Source: Streptosporangium amethystogenes
GTDB taxonomy: Bacteria; Actinomycetota; Actinomycetes; Streptosporangiales; Streptosporangiaceae
Assembly (NCBI RefSeq): GCF_000721075.1
Contig: NZ_JOEQ01000005.1
Span: 558,001-622,000 of the forward strand
Direction: 5' to 3'
Length of the DNA: 64,000 nt
Positions within the stretch are counted from its first letter, which is position 1. Each line of letters starts with the position of its first letter. This document shows positions 2 through 21,482 of the stretch, piece by piece. A program made the translations under genes and the position numbers. Below the pieces are notes generated by a model that was given only the letters and a program-made list of their open reading frames with translations, was not told where the DNA came from and did no database searches.

Positions 2-1069
2 GATCTGAACTGGGAGAACCCCGAGGTTCACGCGGAGTTCGAGTCGATCCTGCGGTTCTGGCTCGACCTGGGGGTCGACGGCTTCCGTATCGACGTCGCC
101 CACGGCATGGTCAAGGCCGAAGGGCTGCCCGACATCGGGCACGGCGACCAGATCCGGATGATCGGCACCGACGTGGTGCCGTTCTTCGACCAGGACGGCG
201 TACACGAGATCCACCGCGCCTGGCGCAGGCTGCTCGACTCCTACCCCGGAGAGCGGATCGGCGTCGCCGAGGCGTGGGCCCCGTCCCCGCAGCGGCTGGC
301 CAACTACGTCCGTCCCGACGAGCTGCACCAGGCGTTCAACTTCCACTTCCTCAACACCCCCTGGGAGGCGGAGGGGTTCCGCGCGGTCATCGAGGAGTCG
401 CTGGCGACCGCCGGGCTGGTCGGCGCGCCCAGCACCTGGGTGCTCTCCAACCACGACGTCAAGCGCCACCTCACCCGGTACGGGGGCGGCGAGGTCGGTC
501 TGCGCCGCTCCCGCGCCGCGGCCCTGCTGACGCTCTCCCTGCCCGGCTCGGCCTACGTCTACCAGGGCGAGGAACTCGGCCTGCCCGAGGTCCTCGACCT
601 TCCCGAGGAGTTCCTGCGCGACCCGCAGCGGTTCCGCAACCCCGACGACGGCCGTGACGGCTGCCGGGTGCCGCTCCCCTGGTCCGACGGCGAGCCGCAC
701 TTCGGCTTCAGTCTGTCGGGCGGCAACGGGACGTGGCTCCCCATACCGTCCTCCTGGGGCCCGCTCAGCGTCGAGTCCCAGCTGCAGGAGCCGCTCTCCA
801 CACTGAACCTGTACCGCGAAGCGCTTCGGATCAGGCGGGAACGAAGGGCCTTCGGCGAGATGCCGCTGGCCTGGCTCGACTCCCCGGAGGGAACGCTGGC
901 CTTCACCCGCGACGCCGGCTTCACCTGCACCGTCAACCTCACCGGCGACCCGGTGGAGCTGCCCGCCCCCGGGCGGGTCCTGCTGGCCAGTGCCGAGCCG
1001 GTCCTCCAGGGCGGCGTCGCGCGCCTCGCGCCCGACTCCGCCGTCTGGTGGCAACGTGATGACGCCTAG
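2..1069 (+). CDS. alpha-glucosidase, GH13 family (5' end outside window)
   Basis: This is the C-terminal three quarters of a retaining GH13 alpha-glucosidase or oligo-1,6-glucosidase, which releases glucose from alpha-glucosides in the cytoplasm. The reading frame is open from base 2. The conserved GFRIDVAHG block carries the nucleophile Asp, GVAEAW carries the acid/base Glu, and SNHDVKRH carries the third catalytic Asp. The chain ends with the small beta-domain usual for the family. Its stop overlaps the start of the LacI gene by 11 bases, so the two were probably co-transcribed and sugar-controlled. The exact substrate (maltose, isomaltose, trehalose, sucrose) cannot be told from this part. 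Confidence 0.9.
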   Translation, partial: DLNWENPEVHAEFESILRFWLDLGVDGFRIDVAHGMVKAEGLPDIGHGDQIRMIGTDVVPFFDQDGVHEIHRAWRRLLDSYPGERIGVAEAWAPSPQRLANYVRPDELHQAFNFHFLNTPWEAEGFRAVIEESLATAGLVGAPSTWVLSNHDVKRHLTRYGGGEVGLRRSRAAALLTLSLPGSAYVYQGEELGLPEVLDLPEEFLRDPQRFRNPDDGRDGCRVPLPWSDGEPHFGFSLSGGNGTWLPIPSSWGPLSVESQLQEPLSTLNLYREALRIRRERRAFGEMPLAWLDSPEGTLAFTRDAGFTCTVNLTGDPVELPAPGRVLLASAEPVLQGGVARLAPDSAVWWQRDDA

Positions 1070-1804
1070 TGCCGTCGGCCCGCTCGGCAACGGCACCGCC
1101 CGGCTGACCGACATCGCCGCGCAGGCCGGGGTCAGCGAGGCCACGGTCAGCCGGGTGCTCAACGGCAAGCCGGGGGTCTCCGGCGCCACCCGGCGCTCGG
1201 TGCTGGCCGCGCTGGACGTCATGGGGTATGAGCGTCCGCAGCGGTTGCGCCAGCGCAGCAACGGGCTGATCGGCCTGGTCACCCCGGAACTGGACAACCC
1301 GATCTTCCCGGCGTTCGCCCAGGCGTTCGAGAAGACACTGACCCAGTACGGTTACACCCCGGTGCTCTGCACCCAGCTGCCCGGCGGCGCGGTCGAGGAC
1401 GAGTTCACCGAGCTGCTCGTGGAGCGCGGGGTCAGCGGCATCATCTTCGTCTCCGGGCTGCACGCCGACGTCACCGCGCGTTCGGACCGCTACACCCAGC
1501 TGATCGGGCAGGGCGTGCCCATCGTCCTGCTCAACGGCTGGGCGCGATCCGGGCCTGCCGGGACCGGGGGCTCTCGGTGCCGGGGGAGGTGTCGGTGGTG
1601 GGGTTCGACGACTCGCCGCTGATCGCGTTCACCGATCCGCCGCTGACCACCGTGCGCCAGCCGGTCCAGTCGATGGTGACCGCCGCCGTCCACACCCTGC
1701 TGGAGGCCATCGCCGGCACACCGGGACAGCACTCCGAACTGATCTTCCAGCCCGAGTTCATCGTCAGGGGATCGACGGGATCCGGCCCCAAGGTGCTCCG
1801 GTGA
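1059..1804 (+). pseudogene. LacI-family repressor, frame-shifted with central deletion
   Basis: The N-terminal part reads as a LacI regulator: helix-turn-helix with DIAAQAGVSEATVSRVLNGK, hinge, and the first half of the sugar-binding domain as far as PIVLLNG at about 1536. Directly after that the sequence jumps to the second subdomain (GAIRACRDRG, then GEVSVVGFDDSP). About 85-90 residues that LacI proteins normally have between these points are absent, and the join is out of frame. The upstream frame therefore runs to a nonsense stop at 1622, while the true C-terminus is in another frame up to 1804. The paralogue at 20724 has nearly the same join but in frame. The product here cannot be a working sugar-responsive repressor unless the join is a sequence error. 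Confidence 0.85.
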
Positions 1805-1983
1805 CGACCTTTCTCCCCTGACCCCTCTCCCGTCGCTCGAATCCATCCCCTCCCCGCTCCTCAACGGAACCGGCGTCACCGCCGGTCCCTCTCCCCGGCA
1901 TGTGCGCCATCCGGCCCGCCCACGGTCCGGACCCTCACTCTCGTTCGATCCAGCGATCTCGCGCGCCCGCCCAGGAGGCCGGC

Positions 1984-4563
1984 ATGAGTGTGCACGACCC
2001 GGCTCCGCCCACCGTTCCCCGGCTGCTCGCAGCACGGGCGGAGACCGATCCCGACCGCCCCGCCCTCGTCGCCGGTGAGCCCGGCGACGGATCGGGCGAC
2101 CTGACCTTCGGCCAGTGGGAACGGCGTTCCAACGCCGCCGCCCGCGGCCTGTTCGCACGCGGACTCCGCCCCGGAGACCGCGTCGGCCTGCTGTTCGGCG
2201 GGGACGAGTGGCCCGCCTTCGCCGTCGCCTTCTGCGCCGTGCTCAAGGCCGGCGGCGTGGCGGTGCCGCTCTCGGCCCGCCTCGGCGACCATGAGTTACG
2301 CGACACCCTGCGGCGTTGCGCCGCCACGGGCGTGCTGCACGGGCGGGAGGTTCCCGCATCCGCCCGGGAGGACCCCGGGCGGTGGTGGTCACCGGTGCCG
2401 GACAGCGGCGACGGCTCGCCGATCGGCGGCGTCGAGGCGCGGCCGGGCGACCTCGCCCAGATCATCTACACCTCCGGCACGACCGGCACTCCCAAGGGCG
2501 TCGGCGCCACCCACGCCAACCTGACCCACGGCCGCCCGCTACGTCCTCGCCGCCGGGCCTACGCCCACTCCGAGCGCTTCCTGCACGCCTTCCCCATCGG
2601 GACGAACGCCGCGCAGATGATGCTGATGGACGCCCTCACCGCCCACCCGGCCGCGCTCACCCTGCCCGGATTCGAGCCCGAGGAATTCTGCCGCCTCGTC
2701 GAGGCCCACCGCGCGGGCACCGTCTTCCTCGTCCCGTCCATGGCCATCGAACTACTCGGTTCCGGCGCCCATCGCAGACACGACCTGTCCGGGGTGCTGC
2801 TGCTCAGCTCCTCGGCCGCCGCGCTGCCTCCGTCCGTCGCCCAGGACCTGGCCGTCGCCTTCCCGGGAGCGACGCTGGTCAACTACTACACCTCGACCGA
2901 GGCGGTCCCCGCCCAGACCACCATGATCGTCGATCCCGCCAGGCCCACCTCCCTGGGCCGCGCCACCGACCCCGGTGACCTGCGCATCCTCGGTGAGAAC
3001 GGGGAGAGGCTGCCTGCGGGCGAGACGGGTGAGGTCTGGCTCCGCTCCCCGGCGCCGCCGCGCTCCTACGTGGGCGACCCCGAAGGCAGCGCGCTGGTCT
3101 TCCGCGACGGCTGGGTCCGGATGGGCGACGTCGGCCACCTTGACGCCGACGGCTACCTCTACCTGTCCGACAGGGAGACGGACGTCATCAAGTCGGGTGC
3201 CCTGAAGGTCTCGACCGTGCGGATCGAGGCGGTGCTGCACGAGCACCCGGCGGTGGCGGAGGCCGCCGTCGTCGGCGTTCCCCACCCCGTGATGGGCGCG
3301 CTGCCCGCCGCCGCCGTACGGCTGGCGTACCCGGTGCCGGTGGACGAGATCCGCGACTTCCTGTCCGGGCGGCTGGCCCGCCACGAGCTGCCGACCAGGA
3401 TCGTGCCGGTCGAGGAGTTCCCCCGCAACGACCTAGGGAAGATCCTGAAGTCCGGGGTCCGCGAGCTGTTCGCCGCGCGGGGCCGCCGGGTCCCGCTGAC
3501 CGCGGGGCAGGCCGGACCGCCGGCCCACGAGGAGACGGTCCGGGTGGCGATGCGGGTGCGCGACAGCGTCGACCCGGGGATCCTGCGCAGGGCGCTCCGC
3601 GAGGTCGCCGCCGCCCACGAGGCACTGAGGCTCACCTTCCCAGTGCTGGACGGCGCCCGCGTCGCCGAGATCGCGCCGGAGGCGGAGCCCGAGCTGGTCC
3701 GCGTCCCGGTGGAGGCCGCCGTCGAGCACGAGCTGTCCCGGGGCTTCGACCTCGAACGGGGGCCGCTGCTCAGGACGATCCTGACCGACCCCGCCCCCGA
3801 CGGGTCCCTGCTGGTGCTCTGCGCCTCCGCGCTGGCCTGTGACGACTGGTCACTGGAGACGGTCCTGTACGAGCTCGGCACCGCCTACGCCGCCGCTCTC
3901 GCGGGGCGTACGGCACCGGCCCCGCCGGCCACCGCGAGCTACTCCGGCTGGGCGGCCACCCGCCCCCCTGCCCCGGGCGTCCCCCCATCCCGGTCCTCGT
4001 CGCCGTTCCCGCACCTCCCGGCCGGCGCCGCCGGGGCATACGGCTTCAGCCTGCCGCCCGAGACGGCCGGGCGGCTGCGGCAGGTGGCGCGGGCCCGCCG
4101 GGTGGCACCCGCCGAGGTGGCCCTGGCCTGCTGGGCGGCCGCGCTGTCGCGGGCCGGGGGCCTGCCTGAGCCGACGGTGCTCGTGCGCGAGCCGGGGCGC
4201 TCGGAACCCGCCCACGCCACCCTGGTCGGCCCGCTCGCGCTGGACGTGCCCGTCCGGGTCACGATTCCCGGCGCCCCCGGCGATCCCGTCGATCCCGCCA
4301 CGCTGATCGGCCTCGCCGAAGCGGTGCCGGAAACGCCGGGGCACGCCGGCCGGTTCCGTTTCGAGGGCTTCCGTCCTGAGCCGTACCTGCCCGGCCTGAA
4401 GTCCGAACCGTACCCGCTGCCCGCGGCTCCGCCCGCCGACGGCGGGCCGTCCCTCACCCTCATCGAACAGCCGGACGGATCCATGTCCGGCGTCTGCGCG
4501 GGGCCCGCAGCCGATGACCTCGGCCGGGGGTTCCAGCGCCTGTGCGACCTCCTCGCTCCCTGA
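1984..4563 (+). CDS. acyl/aryl-AMP ligase fused to a degenerate condensation domain
   Basis: An 859-residue protein opening the NRPS operon. The start is chosen at an ATG preceded by AGGAGG. Residues ~1-500 are an AMP-forming ligase: P-loop-like YTSGTTGTPKG near residue 162, an STE-type A5 region in place of the usual YGPTE, GDVGHLDADGY, and the C-terminal Lys in LGKILKSG. It looks more like acyl-CoA or fatty/aryl acid ligases than amino-acid adenylation domains. Residues ~505-859 resemble a condensation domain, but the HHxxxDG motif reads SALACDD, so both His are gone, and the usual N-terminal motif is missing. There is no carrier domain, so the activated acid must go to a carrier elsewhere, perhaps that of 14168-15766. 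A rare TTA Leu codon lies at 2296. Confidence 0.8.
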   Translation: MSVHDPAPPTVPRLLAARAETDPDRPALVAGEPGDGSGDLTFGQWERRSNAAARGLFARGLRPGDRVGLLFGGDEWPAFAVAFCAVLKAGGVAVPLSARLGDHELRDTLRRCAATGVLHGREVPASAREDPGRWWSPVPDSGDGSPIGGVEARPGDLAQIIYTSGTTGTPKGVGATHANLTHGRPLRPRRRAYAHSERFLHAFPIGTNAAQMMLMDALTAHPAALTLPGFEPEEFCRLVEAHRAGTVFLVPSMAIELLGSGAHRRHDLSGVLLLSSSAAALPPSVAQDLAVAFPGATLVNYYTSTEAVPAQTTMIVDPARPTSLGRATDPGDLRILGENGERLPAGETGEVWLRSPAPPRSYVGDPEGSALVFRDGWVRMGDVGHLDADGYLYLSDRETDVIKSGALKVSTVRIEAVLHEHPAVAEAAVVGVPHPVMGALPAAAVRLAYPVPVDEIRDFLSGRLARHELPTRIVPVEEFPRNDLGKILKSGVRELFAARGRRVPLTAGQAGPPAHEETVRVAMRVRDSVDPGILRRALREVAAAHEALRLTFPVLDGARVAEIAPEAEPELVRVPVEAAVEHELSRGFDLERGPLLRTILTDPAPDGSLLVLCASALACDDWSLETVLYELGTAYAAALAGRTAPAPPATASYSGWAATRPPAPGVPPSRSSSPFPHLPAGAAGAYGFSLPPETAGRLRQVARARRVAPAEVALACWAAALSRAGGLPEPTVLVREPGRSEPAHATLVGPLALDVPVRVTIPGAPGDPVDPATLIGLAEAVPETPGHAGRFRFEGFRPEPYLPGLKSEPYPLPAAPPADGGPSLTLIEQPDGSMSGVCAGPAADDLGRGFQRLCDLLAP

Positions 4564-4625
4564 TCGACCCCCTGACTCCCCCTGATGAGCTCTCTGCGCC
4601 GAGCCCTCATCTGAGATCGGAAGTG

Positions 4626-7721
<3,096 letters not shown>

Positions 7722-7725
7722 GTAC

Positions 7726-10700
7726 GTGCTGACCCACCTGCGGGACGCCGCCCGCGCCGACGGCGTCCCGCTCTCGCCCGGCCAGGAACGGCTCTGGTTC
7801 CTGGATCAGCTCAACCCCGGTGACGCCGCCTACAACGTCTACGTCTCGGAACGGCTGCGCGGACCGCTGGACGCCGCGGCGCTGGCCCGCGCCTTCGAGG
7901 AGGTCGTGGCCAGGCACGACGTGCTGCGCACCCGTTACCCGAGCATGGACGGCCGTCCGGTCCAGGTCGCAGAGGAGTCCGGACCAGACCTGGAGCAGGT
8001 CGACCTGTCCGGTGGGACCGCGCCGGATCCGGTCGGGCGGGCGCGGGAGCTGGTGGCCGAGCTGACCAACCGGGGATTCGACCTGGGGGCAGGGCCGGTG
8101 CTGCGCGCCGTCCTCATCCGGCTGGCCGCCGACGACCACGTGTTCTGCCTCGTCGTCCACCACATCGCGGTGGACGGCTGGTCGCTGGGCGTGCTCCGCG
8201 GCGAGCTGACCGCCCTGTACGAGGCGTTCGCCGCGGGGCTGTCCTCACCGCTCCCGCCGCCCGCACTGCAGTACGCCGAGTACGCCGTGGCCCGCCGCGA
8301 GGCCCCCGCCGAGGAGGACCTGAAGTACTGGCGGGCCAAGCTCGCCGATCCGCCGGTTCTCGCGCTGCCCACCGACCGCCCGCGCCCCCGGATCAGGACC
8401 GCGCGCGGCGCCCACGTCTCGCGGATCATCCCCGGGCCGCTGGCGGCCGAGGTGGCCAGGCTGGCCAGGAGCGAGCGCTGCACGCTGTTCATGACGCTCA
8501 CCGCCGCCTTCCAGGCACTGCTGGCCCGCCACACCGGGCAGGAGGACATCTGCCTGGGCACCCCGGTCGCGGCCAGGGACCGGCCCGAGCTGGAGGGAAT
8601 GATCGGTTTCGTCGTCAACACGCTCGTGCTGCGGGGCGATCTGTCGGGCGACCCGACCTTCCGCGACCTGCTGCGCCGTACCCGCGCGACCGCGCTGGAG
8701 GCGTACCAGCGCCAGGACACGCCCTTCGACGTCCTGGTCAACGAGCTCGGGGTGGACCGGGACCTGTCGCGCACCCCGGTCTTCCAGGCCCAGCTGGTCC
8801 TGCACGGCCGGGACCAGGAGGGGCCGCCGCTGCCCGGGATCACCACCGAGCTGTTCGAGGGCGGCTTCGCCCTGTCCAAGTTCGACCTCTCCCTGGAGAT
8901 CGGGCACGACGGCGACGGGCTGCGGGCGCACCTCTCCTACAACGCGGACCTGTTCGAACCCGGCACCGCCGCACGGCTCGCCGCCCACTTCGAGAACCTG
9001 CTGCGTTGCGCGACCGGTGCCCCGGACACCCGGCTGTCGGAGCTGGAACTGCTCGGCGAGGACGAACGCGAGCTCGTCCTGGAACGATGGAACGGCAGGG
9101 CGTCACGTCCGGACGCCGCCGGGGAGGTCACCACCCTGCACGGGCTCGTGGAGCGTGCCGCGGCCCGCTCACCGGAGGCCGTCGCGGTCGTCTTCGGCGC
9201 CACCGAGCTGACCTACGGTGAACTCGACTCCCGGGCCGACCGGCTCGCCCGGGTACTACGTGGTCACGGGGTCGGCAGGGACGACCGCGTCGCCGTCTGC
9301 CTGGAGCACTCGCCCGACCTGGCGGTGGCCGTGCTGGCCGTGCTCAAGGCGGGGGGCGCCTACCTGCCGCTCGACCCGGAGCAGCCCGCGGACCGGCTCG
9401 CCCACCTGGTCTCCGACTCGGGGACGACGGTGCTGGTGACCGCTCCGGCGCTGGCCGATCTGCTCCGTGCCCGGGTCACGGTCCTGCTCGACGGAGGCGA
9501 GGTCGTGGACCCGGGAGATCCCGCGGATCCCCAGGACCTCGCGGGAGCGGGACCGGACGACCTGGCCTACGTGATCTACACCTCGGGCTCCACCGGCCTG
9601 CCCAAGGGCGTCGCCGTGCAGCACAGGCAGGTCCTCAACTACCTCGCCGACGTGCGCGAGCGATTCGAGATCGTGGACGGCGCCCGGTACGCCCTGCTGC
9701 AGTCGCTCTCCTTCGACTTCGGAGTCACGATCTTCTACCTGGCCCTGGCCACGGGTGGATGCCTGCACCTCGTCCCGTCGCGGATCTCCGGCCCGGACCT
9801 CGCCGACTACGCGGACCGGGTGGGAATCGACTACCTGAAGATCACTCCCTCGCACCTGGGAGCGCTCACCGCCGAGGTCGACCCGCGCCGGATCCTGCCC
9901 CGCCGCATGCTCGTTCTCGGCGGCGAGGGTTCGGCCTGGGAGTGGACCCGCGAGCTGGCCGCCCTCGGCGTCTGCCGGGTGGTGAACCACTACGGCCCCA
10001 CCGAGGCGACCGTCGGCGCGACCACATACGAGGTGGGGGCCACCGACGACGTCCGGGGGCCGATCACCCCGATCGGGCGGCCGCTCGGCCACGTCCGGGC
10101 CTACGTCCTGGACGCCGGCCTCAGGCCGGTGCCGATCGGCGTGGTCGGTGAGCTCTGCCTCGGCGGCGACCGGCTGGCACGCGGGTATCTCGGCCGCCCG
10201 GACCTGACCGCCGCCGCCTTCGTCCCCGACCCCTACGGCGGGCCGGGGGACAGGCTCTACCGCACCGGCGACCTGGCCCGCAGGCTGCCCAGCGGTGACC
10301 TGGAGTTCCTGGGCCGCCGCGACCTCCAGGTCAAGATCCGTGGGTACCGGGTCGAGCTGGGCGAGGTAGACGAGGCGCTCCGCGCCCTCCCCGGCGTCGC
10401 CCACGCGGTGGTGGACGCCCGAGGCCGGCCCGGGGCACTGGAACTGGTCGCCTACCTGGTCGCGGCGGGGACATCCGGGGAACCCGAGACCGAAGGCACC
10501 GGCCGGGCCCCCGCCGGACCGGGCGTGGCCGAGCTGCGCGGGCGGCTGCGGGCCGTGCTGCCCGACTACATGGTGCCGACCCGCTACGTCTGGCTGGAGC
10601 GGCTGCCGCTGAAGTCGCACGGCAAGGTCGACAGGGCCGCGCTTCCCGACCCCGGGGCGGCCGGGCCGGATCGGGCCGGAGAGTTCGAGCAGCCCTCCGG

Positions 10701-13200
10701 GATGGTCGAGGAGGCCGTCGCGGCGGCGTTCGCGCAGGTGCTCGGGGTGGACCGGGTCGGTGCCGGGGACGACTTCTTCGATCTGGGCGGGCACTCGCTG
10801 CTCGCCGTGCGGGTGGTCGCCAGGCTCCGCCGGAGCCTGGACGGCATGCGGCCGGTCAGCGTGATGGACCTGTTCGGCCATCCGAGCCCGCGAGCCCTGG
10901 CCGCCCTCGTCGAGTCGGACGACGGCGGGCCGCGCGGCCTGCTGTACGAGCTGACACCTCCGACCGCCACACCCGAGCTGTCCCTGGTGTGCGTGCCGTA
11001 CGGCGGTGGCAGCGCGGTGGTCTACCAGCCGCTCGCCGACGCCCTGCCCGCCGGGTGCGCGCTGCACGCGGTGGCGGTGCCCGGCCACGACCTGGGGCTG
11101 GCCGAGGAGCCACGCCCGCTGGCCGAGGTCGCCGCCGAGTGCGTGACCGAGATCCTGGCCAAGGTGTCCGGGCCGCTGGTGCTCTACGGCCACTGCGGGG
11201 TGGGTGGCGCGCTGACCGTCGAGATCGCCCGCAGGGTGGAGGCCGCGGGGCGCCCACTTGAGGCGGTCTACCTCGGCGGGCTCTTCCCGTTCGCCCGGCC
11301 CACCCGCGGAGTGCTCGGCCGCTGGGCCCGTCTCACCCGGCTGGAACGGCTGCGCGCCGACCGGGGCCAGGTGAACTGGCTGACCGGAATGGGCGCCGAC
11401 CTGTCCGGGCTGACCGAGGAGCAGCTGGCGTTCGTCGTGCGCAACATGCGGCACGACTCCCGCGAGGCGGAGGACTACTTCACCCGGCTGGTCGAGGAGG
11501 GGGCGGAACCACTGAGGGCCCCGATCATCTCGGTGGTCGGCGAGCGTGACCCCAGCACCGAGTTCCACCGCGAGCGCTACACCGAATGGGGTTTCCTGTC
11601 GCCCCGTACCGCCCTCGCCGTGCTCGACGAGGGCGGCCACTACTTCCTCAAGTACCGGGCCGAGGAACTGGCCGAGATCGTCACCACGGTCCACCCGGCC
11701 CTCGCGGAACCTCCGGTATCGGGAACGCCGGAATGCACCGGCGGCACCTGGCGCCTCGCCGCCGATTCCGGCGCTCCGGACGCTCCGGAGGGCCTGGATC
11801 GCTTCGGCGGGCCAGATGGCCGGGAGGCGCCTGAACCGAGCCTGGCGCGCTTTCTGACGATCGCGGTCGGGCAGCTGGTCACCATCGTGGGTGCCACACT
11901 CACCGAGTTCGCGATCCCCATCTCCACCTACCTGGACGGCGGATCGCTCACCCGGTTCGCCGTGCTCCAGGTGCTCGCGCTGATCCCCGGAATCCTGGTC
12001 GCCCCGCTGGCCGGAGCGATCGTGGACCGGTCGAGCAGGCGGGCCGTCATGCTCGGCGGCAACGTCGCTGCGCTCGTCGTGCAGCTGATCACCGGCATCC
12101 TGGTGTGGAGCGGCGGCCTGGCGGTCTGGCACCTGTACCCGTTGCTCACCGCCCTGTCCGTCGCGCTGACCTTCCAGCGGCTGGCCTATGTCTCGGCCAT
12201 CCCGCAACTGGTCCCCAAACGCTATCTCGGGCACGCCAACGGGGTGGTCCAGGCGACCACCGGCGTGGCGCAGTTCATCGCGCCGCTCGGCGCGGTCGGG
12301 CTGCTCGCGCTCACCGGGCTGGGCGGCATCCTGGTGCTCGACGTCGCCGGGTACGTCGCGGGTGTGATCGTGCTGCTCTGCGTCGCCTTCCCCGCGACGC
12401 TGGCCGGCGAGCGCCACGAGTCCGTCGCGGCGGAGATCGCCGGGGGCTTCCGGCTGCAGATGGGCCGGCCCGGCTTCCGGGCCATGCTGGTCTTCTTCGC
12501 GTTCTTCAACCTGGTGCTCTCCCCGGTGTTCCTGCTCTTCTCGCCGCTGGTGCTCTCCTTCGGGACGCTCGGCGACGCCGGGTTCGTCGCGCTGCTCGGC
12601 GGCGCGGGCGCGGTGACCGGCGGCCTGGTCATGAGCGTGTGGGGCGGGCCGGCGCGCCGCCGGATGTTCGGCGTGCTCATGGGGACGCTGGCGCTGGCGA
12701 CCTGCTGTCTGGTGACCGGCGCGCACGAGTCGCTGCTGTTCGTCGGGGCCGGTGCGTTCGGGGTGTCCTGCTCGCTCGCGCTCGTCAACGGCGTCTACGC
12801 CACCATCGTCCAGGTCAAGGTGCCCCAGCGGTTCCACGGCCGGGTCTTCGCGCTCAACCAGATGGTCGCGCTGTCGACGATCCCGCTCGGCGTGGCCCTG
12901 ATCGCGCCGTTCGGCGAGCGCCTGCTGGAGCCGATGTTCCTGCCGGGCGGCCTGCTGGCCGATACGGCGGGCGCGGTCATTGGGGTGGGGCCGGGCCGGG
13001 GCATCGCGTTCATGTACATCGTGTGCGGCCTGCTGGTCGCGCTGATCGCGGCCGGAGCGCTGCGCAGCCGGGCACTGTCCCGTTTCGACGACGAGGTGCC
13101 GGACGCCGTGGCAGACGACCTGGTCGGTATCGAGGCCCTGAGCCGAAGGACCGGGCCGGACGGAAGAACAACGAGAAAGGAGCCGGTCCAGTGTCCCTGA
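7726..13200 (+). CDS. NRPS C-A-T-thioesterase fused to an MFS exporter, predicted Asp
   Basis: An 1824-residue fusion; the GTG start follows GGGAGGG. Order: condensation domain with intact HHIAVDG (~145); adenylation domain with YTSGSTGLPKG (~618) and pocket residues read as D-F-T-K-V-G-H-V-G-K, close to the aspartate code DLTKVGHIGK; carrier LGGHSL (~1021); thioesterase (~1070-1320); then about 12 membrane helices of an MFS exporter (~1373-1800). The thioesterase elbow reads GHCGVG, placing Cys1157 where Ser is usual; Asp1275 (GERDPS) and His1305 (GGHYF) complete the triad. Cys thioesterases are known from beta-lactone and beta-lactam forming NRPSs, so release may be a cyclisation. The fused exporter suggests peptide release beside the membrane. 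Its end overlaps the next start by 10 bases. Confidence 0.9.
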   Translation: MLTHLRDAARADGVPLSPGQERLWFLDQLNPGDAAYNVYVSERLRGPLDAAALARAFEEVVARHDVLRTRYPSMDGRPVQVAEESGPDLEQVDLSGGTAPDPVGRARELVAELTNRGFDLGAGPVLRAVLIRLAADDHVFCLVVHHIAVDGWSLGVLRGELTALYEAFAAGLSSPLPPPALQYAEYAVARREAPAEEDLKYWRAKLADPPVLALPTDRPRPRIRTARGAHVSRIIPGPLAAEVARLARSERCTLFMTLTAAFQALLARHTGQEDICLGTPVAARDRPELEGMIGFVVNTLVLRGDLSGDPTFRDLLRRTRATALEAYQRQDTPFDVLVNELGVDRDLSRTPVFQAQLVLHGRDQEGPPLPGITTELFEGGFALSKFDLSLEIGHDGDGLRAHLSYNADLFEPGTAARLAAHFENLLRCATGAPDTRLSELELLGEDERELVLERWNGRASRPDAAGEVTTLHGLVERAAARSPEAVAVVFGATELTYGELDSRADRLARVLRGHGVGRDDRVAVCLEHSPDLAVAVLAVLKAGGAYLPLDPEQPADRLAHLVSDSGTTVLVTAPALADLLRARVTVLLDGGEVVDPGDPADPQDLAGAGPDDLAYVIYTSGSTGLPKGVAVQHRQVLNYLADVRERFEIVDGARYALLQSLSFDFGVTIFYLALATGGCLHLVPSRISGPDLADYADRVGIDYLKITPSHLGALTAEVDPRRILPRRMLVLGGEGSAWEWTRELAALGVCRVVNHYGPTEATVGATTYEVGATDDVRGPITPIGRPLGHVRAYVLDAGLRPVPIGVVGELCLGGDRLARGYLGRPDLTAAAFVPDPYGGPGDRLYRTGDLARRLPSGDLEFLGRRDLQVKIRGYRVELGEVDEALRALPGVAHAVVDARGRPGALELVAYLVAAGTSGEPETEGTGRAPAGPGVAELRGRLRAVLPDYMVPTRYVWLERLPLKSHGKVDRAALPDPGAAGPDRAGEFEQPSGMVEEAVAAAFAQVLGVDRVGAGDDFFDLGGHSLLAVRVVARLRRSLDGMRPVSVMDLFGHPSPRALAALVESDDGGPRGLLYELTPPTATPELSLVCVPYGGGSAVVYQPLADALPAGCALHAVAVPGHDLGLAEEPRPLAEVAAECVTEILAKVSGPLVLYGHCGVGGALTVEIARRVEAAGRPLEAVYLGGLFPFARPTRGVLGRWARLTRLERLRADRGQVNWLTGMGADLSGLTEEQLAFVVRNMRHDSREAEDYFTRLVEEGAEPLRAPIISVVGERDPSTEFHRERYTEWGFLSPRTALAVLDEGGHYFLKYRAEELAEIVTTVHPALAEPPVSGTPECTGGTWRLAADSGAPDAPEGLDRFGGPDGREAPEPSLARFLTIAVGQLVTIVGATLTEFAIPISTYLDGGSLTRFAVLQVLALIPGILVAPLAGAIVDRSSRRAVMLGGNVAALVVQLITGILVWSGGLAVWHLYPLLTALSVALTFQRLAYVSAIPQLVPKRYLGHANGVVQATTGVAQFIAPLGAVGLLALTGLGGILVLDVAGYVAGVIVLLCVAFPATLAGERHESVAAEIAGGFRLQMGRPGFRAMLVFFAFFNLVLSPVFLLFSPLVLSFGTLGDAGFVALLGGAGAVTGGLVMSVWGGPARRRMFGVLMGTLALATCCLVTGAHESLLFVGAGAFGVSCSLALVNGVYATIVQVKVPQRFHGRVFALNQMVALSTIPLGVALIAPFGERLLEPMFLPGGLLADTAGAVIGVGPGRGIAFMYIVCGLLVALIAAGALRSRALSRFDDEVPDAVADDLVGIEALSRRTGPDGRTTRKEPVQCP

Positions 13201-14171
13201 CCGTCCCCGCAGTCCACGTCAACTGGACCGGCCCGTACCGGGCCGGTCTCCGCCGCCACCGGGACCGGGCGCTGGAGAACGGACCCTACGGCCTGCCGGT
13301 CGAGGAGATCCTCACCTGCGTGCACAGCGTCCATGCCTGGCGCTCCTTCCACGGAGGCGTCGAGCTGGTGACCGACGAGCTGGGAGCCTCCTACGCCGCC
13401 GCGCAGGGGCTCGACGCGCTCTACGACCGGGTCGACACCCGCCTGGACGAGCTGGACGCCATTGACGTCGACCCGCTCCTGTACTTCGCGGCGGGCAAGA
13501 GCCACGCGGCCCTGTCGCGGACCGCGCCGTTCGCCGTGGTCGACACCGACCTCTACCTGCGCCGCCCCATCGACCACCTGGAGCGCGGCGGGTTCGTCTT
13601 CGCGCACTGGGAGTCGGTCGGCAACTCCGTCTACCCGCCGATCGAGGAGATCCCCAATCCCGCGGGCCTGGACCTGTCCCGCTGGACGTTCGACACCCCG
13701 GCCGCGAACATGGCCGTCTCGGTCTTTCTCGACGACCGGCACCGCGCCGAGTACGCCGAGGCGGCGATGGCGTTCATGACCGGCAACGCGGGCCCTTCGA
13801 GCACCGACCCGATCGTCCGCCAGACCTTCGCCGAGCAGCGCATCGCCCCCGCGGTCGCCCGCTCCCTCGGCGTGGACCCGCGCCCGGTCACCGAGCGCTT
13901 CTGGATCGTGGAGACCGAGGAGTGGGACGGGCCCTCCTATGCCGACCGGTTCCACCACACCTGGAACCAGAAGCGCCAGCTGCGCCAGTTCCCCGAGCTG
14001 CGCCCGGCCTACTGGCGCTACCTGCTGGAGGACCTGCTCTGGAACCACCCTTCCGCCGCCGACCTGCTCCTGTCGGTGCCCGCGCTCGAAGAGTGCGCCG
14101 ACCTCATCCGGGCCGTCCGGCGCGAGCTGGCCGCACACGGCCCCAGCATCCTCGACTGGAGGAGACCGTGA
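13191..14171 (+). CDS. glycosyltransferase-like protein (resembles DUF6734) in NRPS operon
   Basis: A 326-residue soluble protein; the GTG start is preceded by AAAGGAG and lies inside the end of the NRPS-MFS gene. The N-terminal pattern (ELVTDELGA, then LDELDAIDVDPLLYFAAGK, then FAVVDTDLYL near residue 117) resembles the DUF6734 family as I remember it, which has a GT-A-like layout; VDTD would be the DxD-type metal and nucleotide-sugar site. No membrane segment or signal peptide is seen. Its tight position between two NRPS genes implies tailoring of the peptide, possibly by adding a sugar. The family match and the activity are both inference; it could instead be an unrelated tailoring enzyme. 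Confidence 0.6.
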   Translation: MSLTVPAVHVNWTGPYRAGLRRHRDRALENGPYGLPVEEILTCVHSVHAWRSFHGGVELVTDELGASYAAAQGLDALYDRVDTRLDELDAIDVDPLLYFAAGKSHAALSRTAPFAVVDTDLYLRRPIDHLERGGFVFAHWESVGNSVYPPIEEIPNPAGLDLSRWTFDTPAANMAVSVFLDDRHRAEYAEAAMAFMTGNAGPSSTDPIVRQTFAEQRIAPAVARSLGVDPRPVTERFWIVETEEWDGPSYADRFHHTWNQKRQLRQFPELRPAYWRYLLEDLLWNHPSAADLLLSVPALEECADLIRAVRRELAAHGPSILDWRRP

Positions 14172-15766
14172 CCCCGTACCGAGACCGAACCCGGCTGGAG
14201 GAGAAGGTGACCGCGCAGAGCACCGAGACGGAGCTGGGCGCCCTGTGGCGTCAGGTGCTCCGTGTCCCCGAGGTCGCCCCGGGCGACAATTTCTTCGAGC
14301 TGGGCGGCGACTCCTTCAGGGCCGCCCAGCTGGCCTCCCTGATCGGCGACCGCCTGGGCGTGCCCGTCACCCCGGCCCTGGCCTTCGACCGGCCCGAACT
14401 GGGAGGACAGGCCCGCTGGATCGACGACGCCCGCGCCTCGGCCGCCCCGGCCGCCGCCGCCCCGGCGACGGGCGGGGGAGCGGCGCTCAGCACCCAGCAG
14501 GAGGAGTTCCTGCACTGGATGTTCGAAAGCGAGCCGGTCCGCGACATAGGATCCTGCGCCACCGCGATCCGTATCCGGGACGCCCTCGACGTGTCGCTTC
14601 TCACCCGGGCGCTGGAGGCGGTGATCGCTCGGCACGAGCCGCTGCGCACCGTCGTCACCGCGTCGGGGCGGGTCCTGGTCGCGGACGAGCTGCCTCCCGA
14701 GGTCGCCGAGGTCGCGGCCTCCGGTGACACGCCGTCGGAGCGCGAGCGCGACGCCGAGCGGATCGTCTGGCACGAGCGCATGCGCCTGGACAGCGTGCTG
14801 CGCGGCCCGCTCGTCCGGGCGCTGGTGGTGCGCGTCGACGAGGACGACCACGTGCTGGTCCTCGCCGTGCACCACTTCGCCTTCGACGGCTTTTCGCTGG
14901 GCGTCATGCTCAGGGAACTGGGCGTCGTCTACTCGGCGTTGCGCACCGGCCACCCCAGCCCGCTGCGCCCGCTGCCCGTGACCTACGCCGATTACTGCGC
15001 CTTCGCCCGGGAGCAGTGGCCGCGCAACCGGGCCTACTGGGACCGGGTCCTGGAGGGCGCCCCCCGCGCCCTCACGCCGTTCCCCGGCCGCCGGGACACC
15101 GCCCTGTTCTCCCGGCGCAGGCACGCCTTCGAGATCGACGTGGGGCTGGCCCGCGGGTTGCGGGAGACGGCCCAGGCGCGGGGCGCGACCACGTTCATGG
15201 CGGTGGCGGCCTGCTGGACCTGGCTGCTCCGCCAGTGGACGGGGATGACGGACCTGGTGGTGATGTCACCCGTGCCGGGCCGTACCGCACCCGAGCACGA
15301 GGCGCTGATCGGCTGCCTGGTGCAGTCGCTCGTGCTGCGCTTCGACGCCTCGGGGGAGCCCGCCTACTCCGAGCTGCTGGACCGGGTCCGGGAGGTGTCG
15401 GTGGGGGCGGTGACGCACCAGTTCCACTCCTACCTGGAGACCAGGCTGCGGGTGCCGTTCCCGTCGCGGATCCACTACGAGAGCTTCGGCGCCCCGCACT
15501 TCCCCGGCCTGATGTCGGAGGCGTTCCCCTTTCCACGCGAACAGGAGGGGCTCGACTGGGCGGCGAACCCGGGCGAACTCGATCTCAGCGCTCCCGAGCT
15601 GATCGTCGAGGAGCAGCGGGACGGCTCGATGCTCGCCGCCGTGGTCTACAACCACTACGGGTACGACCCCGAGACGGCCGCCGAGCTCGCCGGGGCCTTC
15701 CAGCGCTACGCCCGTATCGCGACCGAGCACCCGGACCGGCCCCTCCCCAGGCTGGGGGCGTCCTGA
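14168..15766 (+). CDS. NRPS-like carrier-condensation (T-C) protein
   Basis: A 532-residue didomain protein: carrier domain with LGGDSF near residue 45, an Ala/Pro-rich linker, then a condensation domain with intact HHFAFDG near residue 234. There is no adenylation domain, so the carrier must be loaded in trans, plausibly by the ligase of 1984-4563. Its C domain could condense the loaded acid onto the Gly module or onto a free acceptor. The GTG start overlaps the previous stop (GTGA). A second GTG at 14207 has a nearly identical Shine-Dalgarno context, GGAGGAGA before both, so the true start is ambiguous; either keeps the whole carrier domain. Confidence 0.85.
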   Translation: MTPYRDRTRLEEKVTAQSTETELGALWRQVLRVPEVAPGDNFFELGGDSFRAAQLASLIGDRLGVPVTPALAFDRPELGGQARWIDDARASAAPAAAAPATGGGAALSTQQEEFLHWMFESEPVRDIGSCATAIRIRDALDVSLLTRALEAVIARHEPLRTVVTASGRVLVADELPPEVAEVAASGDTPSERERDAERIVWHERMRLDSVLRGPLVRALVVRVDEDDHVLVLAVHHFAFDGFSLGVMLRELGVVYSALRTGHPSPLRPLPVTYADYCAFAREQWPRNRAYWDRVLEGAPRALTPFPGRRDTALFSRRRHAFEIDVGLARGLRETAQARGATTFMAVAACWTWLLRQWTGMTDLVVMSPVPGRTAPEHEALIGCLVQSLVLRFDASGEPAYSELLDRVREVSVGAVTHQFHSYLETRLRVPFPSRIHYESFGAPHFPGLMSEAFPFPREQEGLDWAANPGELDLSAPELIVEEQRDGSMLAAVVYNHYGYDPETAAELAGAFQRYARIATEHPDRPLPRLGAS

Positions 15767-16084
15767 CCTCATCTTTCAAACTGCTCTGGGCGTCGCTGTG
15801 GCACTGCCGGCCGGCACCCATGCGGCGGTGATGAGACGGCGGGCACCTTCCGGCGGGGCGCTTGCTTTCCCCACGTGGGCCGGTACGAGACCGTGACGGA
15901 GGCTCCTCCCGGCGGCCGGGCCGCCGTGGGGTCCACGCCGTCGCCGACCCGCCCCGGAGGCCCGCGGGTGAAGCGGAGGTAACGGCTGGCTGTGGGTCCG
16001 TCCTTGCGGATCGCTGACCAAACCCCGGTTGTGCGAAGATCTGCGCCTGACACACCTGTGGTGACGGCGATGGAGCGTACCAGC
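15767..16084. other. intergenic region between NRPS operon and beta-helix gene
   Basis: This is 318 bases with no convincing gene. It must hold the end of the NRPS transcript and the promoter of the beta-helix gene. I see no strong terminator hairpin, no clear -35/-10 pair and no match to a riboswitch that I can recognise. Confidence 0.5.
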
Positions 16085-17353
16085 ATGAGATCGACGAGAC
16101 GGTGGGCCACTCCGGTGGCAGGGGCTTTCCTGGCAGGAGGCATGCTCGTCGCACTGCCCGAGGCCACCGTGGCGGCGGCGGGCACCGTTTACTACGTCGA
16201 CTCCAGGGCGGGGGACGACGCCGCGGCGGGTACCTCGGCCGCGGCGCCCTGGCGCAGCCTGGACAACGTCAACGCCGCCCCCCTTCGTCCCGGTGACATC
16301 GTGCGCCTCAAGCGCGGCAGCGGCTGGCCGGGGGCGCTGAGGTTGTCCGGCCGGGGCACCGCCGCCGGCCCCATCCTGGTCGAACCGTACGGCAAGGGCG
16401 CGGCCCCGAAGATCAGCGGCAGGGACGAGGACTGCGTGGTGATCTCGGGATCCTACGTGCGGGTGGTGGGGGTGCGGGCCAGCAACTGCCGGTGGGCCGG
16501 CTTCGAGGTCGGCGGCAGCCACAACGAGCTCGACCGGATCATCGCCGACCGTAACGTCACCGGTGTCCACTTCATCAGCGCGTACAACGTGGTCAGGAAC
16601 AGCGTGCTGAGCGACAACAACCGGATGAGCGTCAACGACGAGGGCGGTGACAACGACTCCGGAGCCTTCGGCGTGCTGCTCAACGGCGACGACAACCTCG
16701 TCACCGGGAACCTGATCACCGGCAGCTACGCGAGCAGCAAGGACTACGGCACCGACGGCGCCGCGGTCGAGGTGTTCAACGGCGACCGCAACCGGATCAC
16801 CCACAACGTGGCCAGGGAGAACAAGACCTTCGTCGAACTGGGCGCGCAGAAGGGCAAGACCGCCGAGGGCAACGTCTTCGCCCACAACGTGGTGACCGCC
16901 TCGCGCAAGAGCACCTCCTTCCTCATCACGCGCGGCGCCCGCCACGCGGTCGGGCCGGTGAAGGGCACCATCGCGGTGCACAACTCGGTCTACCTGCCCG
17001 CCCGCAGCACCCTCGGCTGGGCCTGCCACGACGGTTGCTCGCCGAACATCCTGAAGCTGCGCAACAACATCATCGTGGTCGGCGGGCAGGTGGGCTTCGA
17101 GGACGGCAAGGGAGCCGATGAGGACGCCGGTGTCTACAAGGGCCGTTCCCTCAGGTTCAAGCTCGGTCCCAGGTCGATCGTGGCCGATCCCCGCTTCAAA
17201 AGCCGGAAGGACCTGCGCCTGAGCCCCGGCTCCCCGGCACTCGGCCGCGGTGTCAAGCTCGACCCCGCCTGGTACGGGGGTGCGAGCCTGGCCAGGGACC
17301 TTTCCGGTGCCGCACTGCCCGTAGTCCCCGCCGCCGGGGCATATCAATCCTGA
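16085..17353 (+). CDS. secreted right-handed parallel beta-helix protein
   Basis: About 422 residues. The chosen ATG has GGAG nine bases upstream; an ATG at 16070 is an alternative. Residues 1-~32 form a signal peptide: RSTRR, a hydrophobic core, then VAAAG. The mature N-terminus reads YYVDSRAGDDAAAGTS, typical of pectate-lyase-like and NosD-like beta-helix proteins, followed by repeated coils with Asn ladders (NELDRI, NVVRNSV, DNLVTGNLI, NRITHN, GNVFAHN). These proteins usually bind or cleave acidic polysaccharide outside the cell. No catalytic set could be assigned. It stands alone, downstream of the NRPS operon on the same strand, without evidence that it belongs to it. Confidence 0.8.
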   Translation: MRSTRRWATPVAGAFLAGGMLVALPEATVAAAGTVYYVDSRAGDDAAAGTSAAAPWRSLDNVNAAPLRPGDIVRLKRGSGWPGALRLSGRGTAAGPILVEPYGKGAAPKISGRDEDCVVISGSYVRVVGVRASNCRWAGFEVGGSHNELDRIIADRNVTGVHFISAYNVVRNSVLSDNNRMSVNDEGGDNDSGAFGVLLNGDDNLVTGNLITGSYASSKDYGTDGAAVEVFNGDRNRITHNVARENKTFVELGAQKGKTAEGNVFAHNVVTASRKSTSFLITRGARHAVGPVKGTIAVHNSVYLPARSTLGWACHDGCSPNILKLRNNIIVVGGQVGFEDGKGADEDAGVYKGRSLRFKLGPRSIVADPRFKSRKDLRLSPGSPALGRGVKLDPAWYGGASLARDLSGAALPVVPAAGAYQS

Positions 17354-17445
17354 TTTTTACCTGCTTTGGGTCTTAAGCTGGACATCTCTCCGGAACCTTC
17401 GTGAAACCTGGCTAGGACAGTCTGGTGCGCAGAGCGAGGTGATCG

Positions 17446-18093
17446 GTGATGATGTTGCGGCTCCGTGTTTCCTTCCCTGACAGGCCGGGTGCCCTGGGCC
17501 AGGCGGCCCGGGTGCTCGGCACGCTGGGCGCGGACATCCTCCAGGTGACGGTCCTGGAACGTGAGGTCGGCCGGGCGGTGGACGACTTCACGGTCTCCTG
17601 GCCCGGCAGCGTGGACGCCGAGACGGTCAGGGACCGTCTCTCCGGCGTCCCCGGAATGAGGGTGGAGGGCGTCTGGCCCACCCGTGAGATCCCCGGTGCC
17701 GCTCCGGACTACGACCTGCTCAAGCACGTCGCCGCCGATCCGGGCAGGGCGCTGGCCACCCTCGTGGACGCCATGCCGGACCTGGTGAGCGCCGAGTGGG
17801 CGGTGACCATGTCCTCGGGGAGCGGGGAGTTCGTCCACCGCAGCTGGCAGGCGCCGGCCGGCCTCGACGGGACGGGCGGTCTCGCCGGCGTCAAGTGGAC
17901 GGACCTCGCGCCGCTGCGACCGGCCGTCCTCGGGACGGGCGATCACCAGCTGATGAGCGTTCCCGTGCCGGAGATGAGCCTGCACCTGGTCCTCGCCCGC
18001 ACCGGAGGCCCGCCCTTCCACCGTGTCGAGCTGGACCGTGCCATCCGCGTCCTGGAGATCGTCTCCATCCTGGGGCGGGCCTCCCGGGCCTGA
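17446..18093 (+). CDS. ACT-domain protein
   Basis: A 215-residue cytoplasmic protein. The N-terminal ~75 residues are an ACT domain (LRVSFPDRPGALGQAARVL, then GADILQVTVLE), the fold that usually binds small ligands, mostly amino acids, in regulatory proteins. The remaining ~140 residues resemble nothing I can name; PDYDLLKHVAADP and a later V/L-rich segment recur in actinobacterial ACT proteins of unknown role. The start codon is one of GTG-ATG-ATG in a row at 17446-17454. It stands alone with 92 bases of spacer before it. Confidence 0.75.
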   Translation: MMMLRLRVSFPDRPGALGQAARVLGTLGADILQVTVLEREVGRAVDDFTVSWPGSVDAETVRDRLSGVPGMRVEGVWPTREIPGAAPDYDLLKHVAADPGRALATLVDAMPDLVSAEWAVTMSSGSGEFVHRSWQAPAGLDGTGGLAGVKWTDLAPLRPAVLGTGDHQLMSVPVPEMSLHLVLARTGGPPFHRVELDRAIRVLEIVSILGRASRA

Positions 18094-18318
18094 GTGTTTC
18101 CGATATGTCGGCTATTGGGTAGAAAGCGAGAAGCGGTGTGCTGCCACTTCCCGCGACCGTGCCTTGCCGCCCGTCGCGACCGGCTCCGTCGGGGCCGTCC
18201 GGCTACGGCCTGGCAGGCGGGTGACCACCGTCGCACGTCGGCGTCAGCTCTCCCCCCGATAGACAGCGCAGGTCATATCGGTACCGGGCCCTCGCGGGTC
18301 CGCGAGGAGGGCAGCCTG

Positions 18319-19062
18319 ATGCCTAACCGCCACCACACCGTGGCCATGAGCCTGCTGGGGCTCTGCCTGGGAACGAGTACCGCCTGCGGGAGCGGGGAGT
18401 GGATCGCCGGGGCCGGGGTTCCCGCCGACCTCGCGCGAAACCCCGGCCCCGGGCAGAGCGCCACCTCCACCGCGAGCCCCGGTTCCGCGAGCCCCACTCC
18501 CGGGGGGAGCACCGGTGCGGCACCCGTTCCCAAGGGTTTCAAAACGATCGGCGGCCCCGCCAACGGCGTCAGCGTCGCGGTCCCGAAGGAGTGGGTCGCG
18601 ATCGACCTGACCAAGGACGATCTCAACAAGGGGCTGAAGAGCAGCGGGCTGTCCGGCCCCACCCTGGAGCAGGCCAAGAAGAGCCTGCAGACCCTGGTCG
18701 ACAACAAGGGAATCTGGGCGGCCGACCCCGGGTCGGCCAAGACCTCCCCGAACGGGTTCCCGACCAACCTCAACGGCTTCTGCCAGGCCGGGCGGCAGAT
18801 CTCGACGGAACAGCTGATCAAGGAGACCAGATCCCAGTTGGAGCAGCTCAAGGCCAAGGTCGTCGCGGCGGGGAAGGTGACGATCGGCTCCAGGGAGGCG
18901 GCACGGATCGTCTACACCTTCCCGACCAACGGCGTCGACGTCAGGGGCACTCAGTACTACGTGCCGACCAAGGACAAGACCTGCATCGTCACGCTCAGCA
19001 CCGACGTCGACGGCAAGCAGGAGCTGTTCGACAAGATAGGCCAGACGATCCGGCCGGTCTGA
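18319..19062 (+). CDS. putative lipoprotein of unknown function
   Basis: 247 residues with a good ribosome site (GAGGAGGG, eight bases before ATG). The N-terminus is short and basic, then hydrophobic (SLLGLCLGTSTACGSG); the Cys at about residue 23 in STAC is a plausible lipidation site, although -3 is Ser rather than Leu. A Pro/Ser/Thr/Gly-rich linker (~40-75) leads to a compact C-terminal domain containing GVSVAVPKEWVAIDLT and ending near IGQTIRPV. Similar small lipoproteins are common in actinomycetes without known role. It converges on the ABC ATPase gene. Confidence 0.7.
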   Translation: MPNRHHTVAMSLLGLCLGTSTACGSGEWIAGAGVPADLARNPGPGQSATSTASPGSASPTPGGSTGAAPVPKGFKTIGGPANGVSVAVPKEWVAIDLTKDDLNKGLKSSGLSGPTLEQAKKSLQTLVDNKGIWAADPGSAKTSPNGFPTNLNGFCQAGRQISTEQLIKETRSQLEQLKAKVVAAGKVTIGSREAARIVYTFPTNGVDVRGTQYYVPTKDKTCIVTLSTDVDGKQELFDKIGQTIRPV

Positions 19063-19088
19063 CGGCCGCCCCGTATCCTCGGCGGCCG
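19063..19088 (+). terminator. possible terminator hairpin
   Basis: Directly after the lipoprotein stop, CGGCCGCC and GGCGGCCG form an 8-bp stem around a 10-base loop, between two convergent genes. There is no T run, as is usual in such GC-rich genomes. Confidence 0.45.
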
Positions 19089-19135
19089 CCACCGCGTTGC
19101 CGGATCCACGATCACCCTTTCGGGGGCGCTCCGGA

Positions 19136-20428
<1,293 letters not shown>

Positions 20429-20630
20429 GCTCGCTCGTTCCTCCCGGGCGCCCCCGCCCGGATCCCAGCCGTGTGATTGATGAGGTAGTACATCGCGACA
20501 CTTGCCCATGTGTCCATAGATGTCGTTAGAAATCGCTCATCTGATGGTTACTTCTACGTTCCCTGATGTGACGGTCAGTCGTGACCGGAGGGCTTTACTG
20601 AAATGCCACTGTGGGGGTTGAGATGTTACA

Positions 20631-20653
20631 GTTTGCGAAAAGTTGCAGAAACG
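20631..20653. promoter_or_regulatory. candidate LacI-type half-sites
   Basis: In the 295-base divergent spacer between the ABC ATPase and the LacI gene, the minus strand reads TTTCTGCAA and, about 11 bases on, TTTTCGCAAA. These look like two direct half-sites of the TTGCA/TTTC type bound by actinobacterial LacI repressors of maltose genes. They are not a palindrome, so the assignment is tentative. Confidence 0.3.
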
Positions 20654-20723
20654 AATTTCACAGCGGGTGTCGGATGCCGATCGGCTTGCGCCTGATTCGG
20701 CCGCATGGTGGGGTGGCTCATTG

Positions 20724-21482
20724 ATGGACGGTGAACTCGCGCAGACCTCACGCTCCCGCTCCGACGGGACGGCGATTCGGCTGGCCGACATCGCCGCGCA
20801 GGCCGGGGTCAGCGAGGCGACGGTCAGCCGGGTGCTCAACGGCAAGCCCAGTGTGTCGCAGGCGACCAGGCAGGCGGTGCTGACCGCGCTCGACCTGATG
20901 GGGTACGAGCGCCCGCAGCGGTTGCGCCAGCGCAGCAACGGGCTGATCGGCCTGGTCACCCCGGAACTGGACAACCCGATCTTCCCGGCGTTCGCCCAGG
21001 CCATCGAGAAGGCGCTCACCCAGCACGGTTACACCCCGGTGCTCTGCACCCAGCTGCCCGGCGGTGCTCCCGAGGACGAGTTCACCGAGCTGCTGATGGA
21101 CCGCGGGGTCAGCGGCATCGTCTTCGTCTCCGGGCTGCACGCCGACACCACGGCCAAGATGGACCGTTACACCCGGTTGACCGAGCGTGGGCTGCCGATC
21201 GTCCTGCTGGACGGGCTGGGCGCGATCCGGGCCTGCCGGGACCGGGGGCTCTCGGTGCCGGGGGAGGTGTCGGTGGTGGGGTTCGACGACTCGCCGCTGA
21301 TCGCGTTCACCGACCCGCCGCTGACCACCGTGCGCAAGCCCATCGGCGCCATGGCCTCGGCGGCGGTGGCCACCCTCCTGGAAGAGATCAACGGAGTCCG
21401 CGCCAAGCACGTCGAGCTGATGTTCCAGCCCGAGCTCGTCGTGCGCCGCTCCACCGGTTCGGGCCCGCTGGTCAACCGCTAG
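20724..21482 (+). CDS. LacI-family regulator with in-frame deletion of central domain
   Basis: 252 residues against the usual ~335-345. The DNA-binding domain is intact and nearly identical to that of 1059-1804 (DIAAQAGVSEATVSRVLNGK), as is the start of the sugar-binding domain (LVTPELDNPIFPAFAQ). At VLLDGLGAIRACRDRG, around 21210-21225, the chain jumps from the first subdomain to the ALGAIRA segment of the second, so ~85-90 residues holding much of the ligand pocket are missing. Unlike the other copy the frame is kept, so a protein could be made and might still bind DNA. The ATG has only a weak GGGGTGG upstream. Beside a MalK-like ATPase and a sugar kinase it would normally be a sugar-responsive repressor. 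Confidence 0.8.
   Translation: MDGELAQTSRSRSDGTAIRLADIAAQAGVSEATVSRVLNGKPSVSQATRQAVLTALDLMGYERPQRLRQRSNGLIGLVTPELDNPIFPAFAQAIEKALTQHGYTPVLCTQLPGGAPEDEFTELLMDRGVSGIVFVSGLHADTTAKMDRYTRLTERGLPIVLLDGLGAIRACRDRGLSVPGEVSVVGFDDSPLIAFTDPPLTTVRKPIGAMASAAVATLLEEINGVRAKHVELMFQPELVVRRSTGSGPLVNR

Follow-up and report, generated by a model that had tools for sequence, protein, structure and literature searches.

The loss of one and the same central segment from two LacI-family genes, A and B, in a draft genome of Streptosporangium amethystogenes is almost certainly an assembly fault and not a real biological feature. We favour an assembly fault because the identical block retained at both joins has the length of the overlaps between the draft's own contigs, because both copies of a second repeat pair on that scaffold have suffered a similar loss, and because the draft of a congener, G011, carries an N gap at the same locus. 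We infer that the organism's own A and B are whole.

LacI Genes A and B as Assembled

The window, by which we mean the whole stretch of 64,000 nucleotides analysed, comes from a draft of 9.4 Mb in 229 contigs, where it lies on scaffold C5 (782,858 bp, without N); positions given without a scaffold name are those of the window. Direct reading confirmed the two LacI genes at 1059-1804 (A) and 20724-21482 (B) with the shared central jump that the first-pass annotation had described, both genes passing, on reading and translation, from "...VLLNG/VLLDG" directly to the GAIRACRDRG segment. When A and B were aligned to their orthologues in the one-contig relative G003, the loss amounted to 102 codons of the effector domain, or about 306 bases, which corrects the earlier estimate of 85-90 residues and ~260 bases. 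The joins had been put at about 1538 and 21215; alignment to relatives keeps the latter, best placed between 21214 and 21215, and moves the former to between 1536 and 1537. It was also right that one copy is out of frame and the other in frame, A having lost 307 bp and B 306 bp.

Gene A starts in translation as a LacI-family protein, loses its frame near 1537, and has its GAIRACRDRG segment in another frame, with positions 1-479 of the gene at 94% DNA identity to gene A of G003. Gene B as assembled keeps an open frame of 252 codons. The N-terminal LacI helix-turn-helix (PF00356) is present in the frames of both genes, and a complete two-subdomain effector region is absent from both as assembled, half of PF13377 being gone in B and A being split over frames (Table 1). 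Directly after the joins, 99 bp are identical between the two genes (1537-1635 in A and 21215-21313 in B). The search for an intact third paralogue, which the first-pass annotation had proposed, found a more distant LacI gene with an unbroken 386-aa frame at scaffold C5:532968-533969, outside the window, with an N-terminal part that has about 63% identity to that of B.

Table 1. Features of the two LacI genes, their direct neighbours, and the contig overlaps of the draft (window positions, except in the last row)
Feature	Position	Strand	Evidence
Alpha-amylase-family glycosidase (profile positions 195-442 of 446), directly upstream of A	107..1069	+	PF00128 E=3.9e-25, PF11941 E=3.9e-8
LacI paralogue A, 5' part (LacI DNA-binding domain and first half of effector domain)	1059..1536	+	PF00356 E=1.5e-14
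Join in A, taken as false	1536..1537	+	307 bp of G003 missing, out of frame
LacI paralogue A, 3' part, in another frame as assembled	1537..1804	+	95% identity to G003 gene A
LacI paralogue B, 5' part	20724..21214	+	PF00356 E=1.9e-17; 95% identity to G003 gene B
Join in B, taken as false	21214..21215	+	306 bp of G003 missing, in frame
LacI paralogue B, 3' part	21215..21482	+	PF13377 positions 87-167 of 167 only
pfkB-family carbohydrate kinase, directly downstream of B	21509..22432	+	PF00294 E=8.1e-28
99-bp terminal overlaps between contigs	C3 start with C28 end; C6 end with C11 start; C6 start, C39 start and C8 end		

Judged from the sequence, the amylase-family and pfkB neighbours suggest a carbohydrate regulon for A and B. 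Between the two LacI genes, at 1900-15766 on the forward strand, the adenylation, condensation, carrier, thioesterase, and MFS transporter domains make up a non-ribosomal peptide synthetase cluster, in which two condensation matches are partial (profile positions 29-180 and 29-327 of 456) and could represent remnants of domains or additional errors of assembly. Upstream of gene B, at 19136-20509 on the reverse strand, lies an ABC transporter ATPase of 457 aa.

The Missing Stretch in Related Genomes

Alignment with the LacI orthologues of related genomes, the check put forward at the outset, found the missing stretch of about 306 bp present in the relatives. Both A and B are full length in seven congeners (G002, G003, G004, G005, G012, G014, and G015), and in 11 of 15 congeners (G002-G007, G010, and G012-G015) a single open frame spans the two halves of the B orthologue; of the remaining four, G001 and G009 have it cut by a contig end, G011 has an N gap in it, and G008 has no close orthologue. 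At a wider scale, 78 of the 80 B loci that we fetched run unbroken across the join point, the other two stop with their contig inside the core (Streptosporangium minutum L071 and S. pseudovulgare L078), and the deletion in B was found in none of these 80 other loci. At the protein level, the best 120 listed relatives of B (P0002) measure 330-369 aa, and the 252-codon length of assembled B is absent among them. A motif check on six further stretches found both motifs in an open frame in L290 and none in the other five; this check was not used, and for the genomes of those six stretches we relied instead on the open-frame listing of the congeners.

In the congeners, the missing stretch is part of a repeat. 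The core (codons 172-301, about 390 bp) is 97.9-100% identical between A and B within each of the same seven genomes, with longest exact A/B runs of 397 bp in G015, 371 bp in G014, 409 bp in G004, 387 bp in G002, and 308 bp in G012, and of only 112 and 149 bp in G003 and G005, respectively. Exact runs of 112-409 bp were thus found in all seven congeners examined, a figure that describes the relatives' core and not the strain's own. An orphan copy of the core was also sought in the draft's own readable genome, with the 306 bp that G003 has in gene B as the query, and this query matched only at 74% over 87 bp and over a further 28 bp; within the scope of this search, the six small contigs sampled (C100, C110, C130, C160, C190, and C229) read as N.

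Other drafts have trouble at the same locus. In gene B of G011 (L287, G011:C29:352500-354500), a run of 10 N stands in place of about 537 bp and is flanked by 95-bp blocks identical to G011's own gene A, which is itself whole; this gap supports the reading of the double loss as an assembly fault. In the drafts G009 (L156, L155) and G001 (L158, L157), one contig runs from an A-like front into a B-like back, and a second contig stops within the core; these A-front/B-back genes could be repeat misassemblies or real recombinants lacking the interval between the genes.

Probable Fingerprint of the Assembly at the Joins

Counted from CTGG after the joins, A and B agree over 98 bases, or over 100 if the two Gs preceding CTGG are included, the first difference being at 1636 in A and 21314 in B. 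Because the relatives have GCG before CTGG, the core can account for 99 of the 100 bases, which leaves one G that probably matches by chance. This retained block of 99-100 bp matches the length at which the contigs of the draft overlap. Among the 36 contig ends compared, seven have an exact 99-bp terminal block in common with another end (Table 1), two share 98 bp, two share 96-97 bp offset by 1-2 bases, two share 51 bp, and 23 share none, so that 99 bp is the commonest terminal overlap in this comparison.

The same length recurs within scaffold C5, which holds 20 exact direct repeat pairs of at least 45 bp, none of them (0/20) longer than 100 bp, and the three longest measure 100 (the LacI pair), 99, and 99 bp. 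As a control, 400 kb of G003 gave 1062 exact direct repeat pairs of at least 45 bp, of which 140 exceed 100 bp, although this control is partial, in that most of the 140 sit in two repeat-rich stretches; the six outside those stretches are two of the LacI pair and four short-period tandem repeats.

The second exact 99-bp pair on C5 belongs to a different repeat, lies outside the window at scaffold positions 274157-274255 and 274932-275030, and is followed directly after the 99-bp block by losses of 147 and 112 bp relative to G003, with comparable gaps at both points relative to G005, G014, and G004. Its joins resemble those of the LacI genes, with an exact block of ~99 bp on one side and slightly different cut points on the other. 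Its two copies resemble each other less in G003, where identity is 85% over 383 bp and no exact run is longer than 84 bp, so a collapse at this place rests on the 99-bp identity in the draft itself; the sequence comparison indicates that this place is probably misassembled too. The earlier argument that two independent deletions at one point are unlikely stands as far as the coincidence is concerned, which would be great, yet an unrelated repeat on the same scaffold has a like double loss, and this speaks for the assembly as the source. The third pair, at 545815 and 546423, was compared with four congeners, of which only G005 aligned well and with a different arrangement, and we did not count it either way. 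A repeat in three copies, with exact blocks of 84-99 bp, occupies scaffold positions 545501-546521 and may mark a further doubtful spot in the assembly. Losses in themselves are not rare on C5, which relative to G003 has a further 12, of 58-1755 bp, that may be natural.

Explanations for the Shared Loss

The organism most probably carries two full-length LacI-family regulators with a near-identical effector-binding core, kept so by gene conversion. To a de Bruijn assembler of short reads working with a k of about 99, the two cores would have been indistinguishable and would have been collapsed, so that each downstream contig started with the final 99 bp of the core common to both, and scaffolding or gap closing would then have fused the upstream contigs directly to the downstream ones, dropping about 306 bp at both places. 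It is presumably a program of this type, and a step of this type, that dropped the core. Placed on the sequences of the relatives, the joins fall about 20-30 bp upstream of the start of A/B identity, which is further back than plain k-mer trimming predicts, and the left joins are offset by one base between A and B; plain collapse does not account for the dropping step, and an extra trimming step presumably acted at the upstream sides.

Gene conversion and excision had been offered as alternatives to an assembly fault. The first would require a real deletion in one paralogue that was then copied to the other, and the homogenisation of A and B in most of the relatives examined speaks in its favour; a copied deletion would, however, carry one join, whereas the left joins differ by one base, leaving one gene in frame and the other out, and the paralogue-specific bases persist until only a few bases before each join. 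As it also gives no account of the match between the retained block and the contig overlap, or of the like double loss at the unrelated repeat, we consider a copied deletion very improbable. Gene conversion probably does occur at this locus, making the genes too alike to assemble, without being the carrier of the deletion. A recurrent process of site-specific or recombinational excision that takes the core out of each gene would by its nature give two events at one homologous point, but the direct repeats across the joins of the window are weak and imperfect (e.g., 17 nt at 82%), none of the 80 other B loci has the deletion, and the loss in G011 is an N gap and not a join. Weak repeats at the joins together with no deletion in the 80 other loci led us to reject excision, whose probability we regard as minimal. 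Among the three options, then, the assembly fault is strongly supported, recurrent excision is discarded, and gene conversion is retained only as the probable cause of the likeness between the genes.

The in-frame copy had also been interpreted as a repressor blind to its sugar. As assembled, B does have an open frame of 252 codons, as would suit a real, shortened LacI protein able to bind DNA and insensitive to its sugar, but that length is unmatched among the best 120 listed relatives, half of PF13377 is gone (positions 87-167 of 167 are kept), and the evidence for an assembly fault covers B as much as A. A sugar-blind repressor is left unsupported, and a genuine short protein is hardly credible.

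Probable Concerted Evolution of the A/B Pair

The homogenisation of the two genes was followed in a sample of 18 genomes with both genes in hand. Within a genome, the core of A and the core of B (codons 172-301) are on average 95.3% identical (range 80.1-100, n=18), compared with 86.0% (A-A) and 85.9% (B-B) between genomes. In the flanks (codons 136-171 and 302-352), the identity is 71% within a genome versus about 86% between orthologues. The nearest sequence is the paralogue of the same genome in 25 of 36 cases for the core, or 28 of 36 when third positions are compared, and in 0 of 36 cases for the flanks. Likewise, the core tree places A and B of one genome as sisters in 12 of the 18 genomes, and the flank tree does so in 0 of 18, with a clean split of A versus B at a support of 1.0. 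The extent of the process varies: L111 is without homogenisation, with 80.1% in the core, and the DNA-binding domain has a weaker signal, in 6 of the 18 genomes.

From these sequence comparisons, the A/B pair in the relatives seems to be under concerted evolution, most simply by gene conversion. Our literature search on gene conversion of LacI paralogues in Actinobacteria found nothing, and neither did the one on LacI/MalR in Streptosporangium; for both topics, we make no wider claim on what is in print. As a tentative and rather doubtful generalisation, neighbouring LacI paralogues of Streptosporangiaceae might share one effector-binding core through repeated conversion while keeping their flanks private, and selection might in this way maintain two regulators that have a sugar signal in common yet neither pair with one another nor act at the same sites. 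The selective reason for the homogenised core is speculation on our part.

Implications and Comparison with Known Systems

Repeat collapse can mimic striking biology, here a deletion shared by two paralogues and in frame in one, with a plausible truncated protein as its product, and a cheap test helps to separate the two, namely comparing the length of the identical block at a join with the terminal overlaps of the contigs of the same assembly. The present case suggests that homogenised regulator pairs are liable to misassembly, and truncated or chimeric LacI genes in drafts of Streptosporangiaceae should therefore be taken with caution. The deletion as it was first described is of low interest, and the homogenised core is a modest side result.

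The proteins of A and B match, by sequence, solved LacI-family structures such as CcpA and PurR, and we take their core to correspond to the C-terminal effector subdomain of the LacI family. They resemble the LacI carbohydrate regulators in their LacI DNA-binding domain, their effector domain, their amylase-family neighbour, and the presence of intact orthologues in many Streptosporangiaceae, some relatives bearing the annotation label "HTH-type transcriptional regulator MalR"; they differ from those regulators in that A and B as assembled are without 102 effector-domain codons.

Among published misassemblies, passages of a report on Porphyromonas gingivalis (PMC5771137) describe how unbridgeable repeats, paralogous coding regions included, cause false joins and breaks in bacterial drafts. 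The LacI joins are like the cases in those passages in being, in all likelihood, false joins at repeats that the assembler could not bridge, and unlike them in that here the same coding segment was lost from two paralogues and a block of the length of the contig overlap was left behind. It is because the same segment is gone from both genes, with an overlap-length block remaining, that the LacI double loss looks like a biological event.
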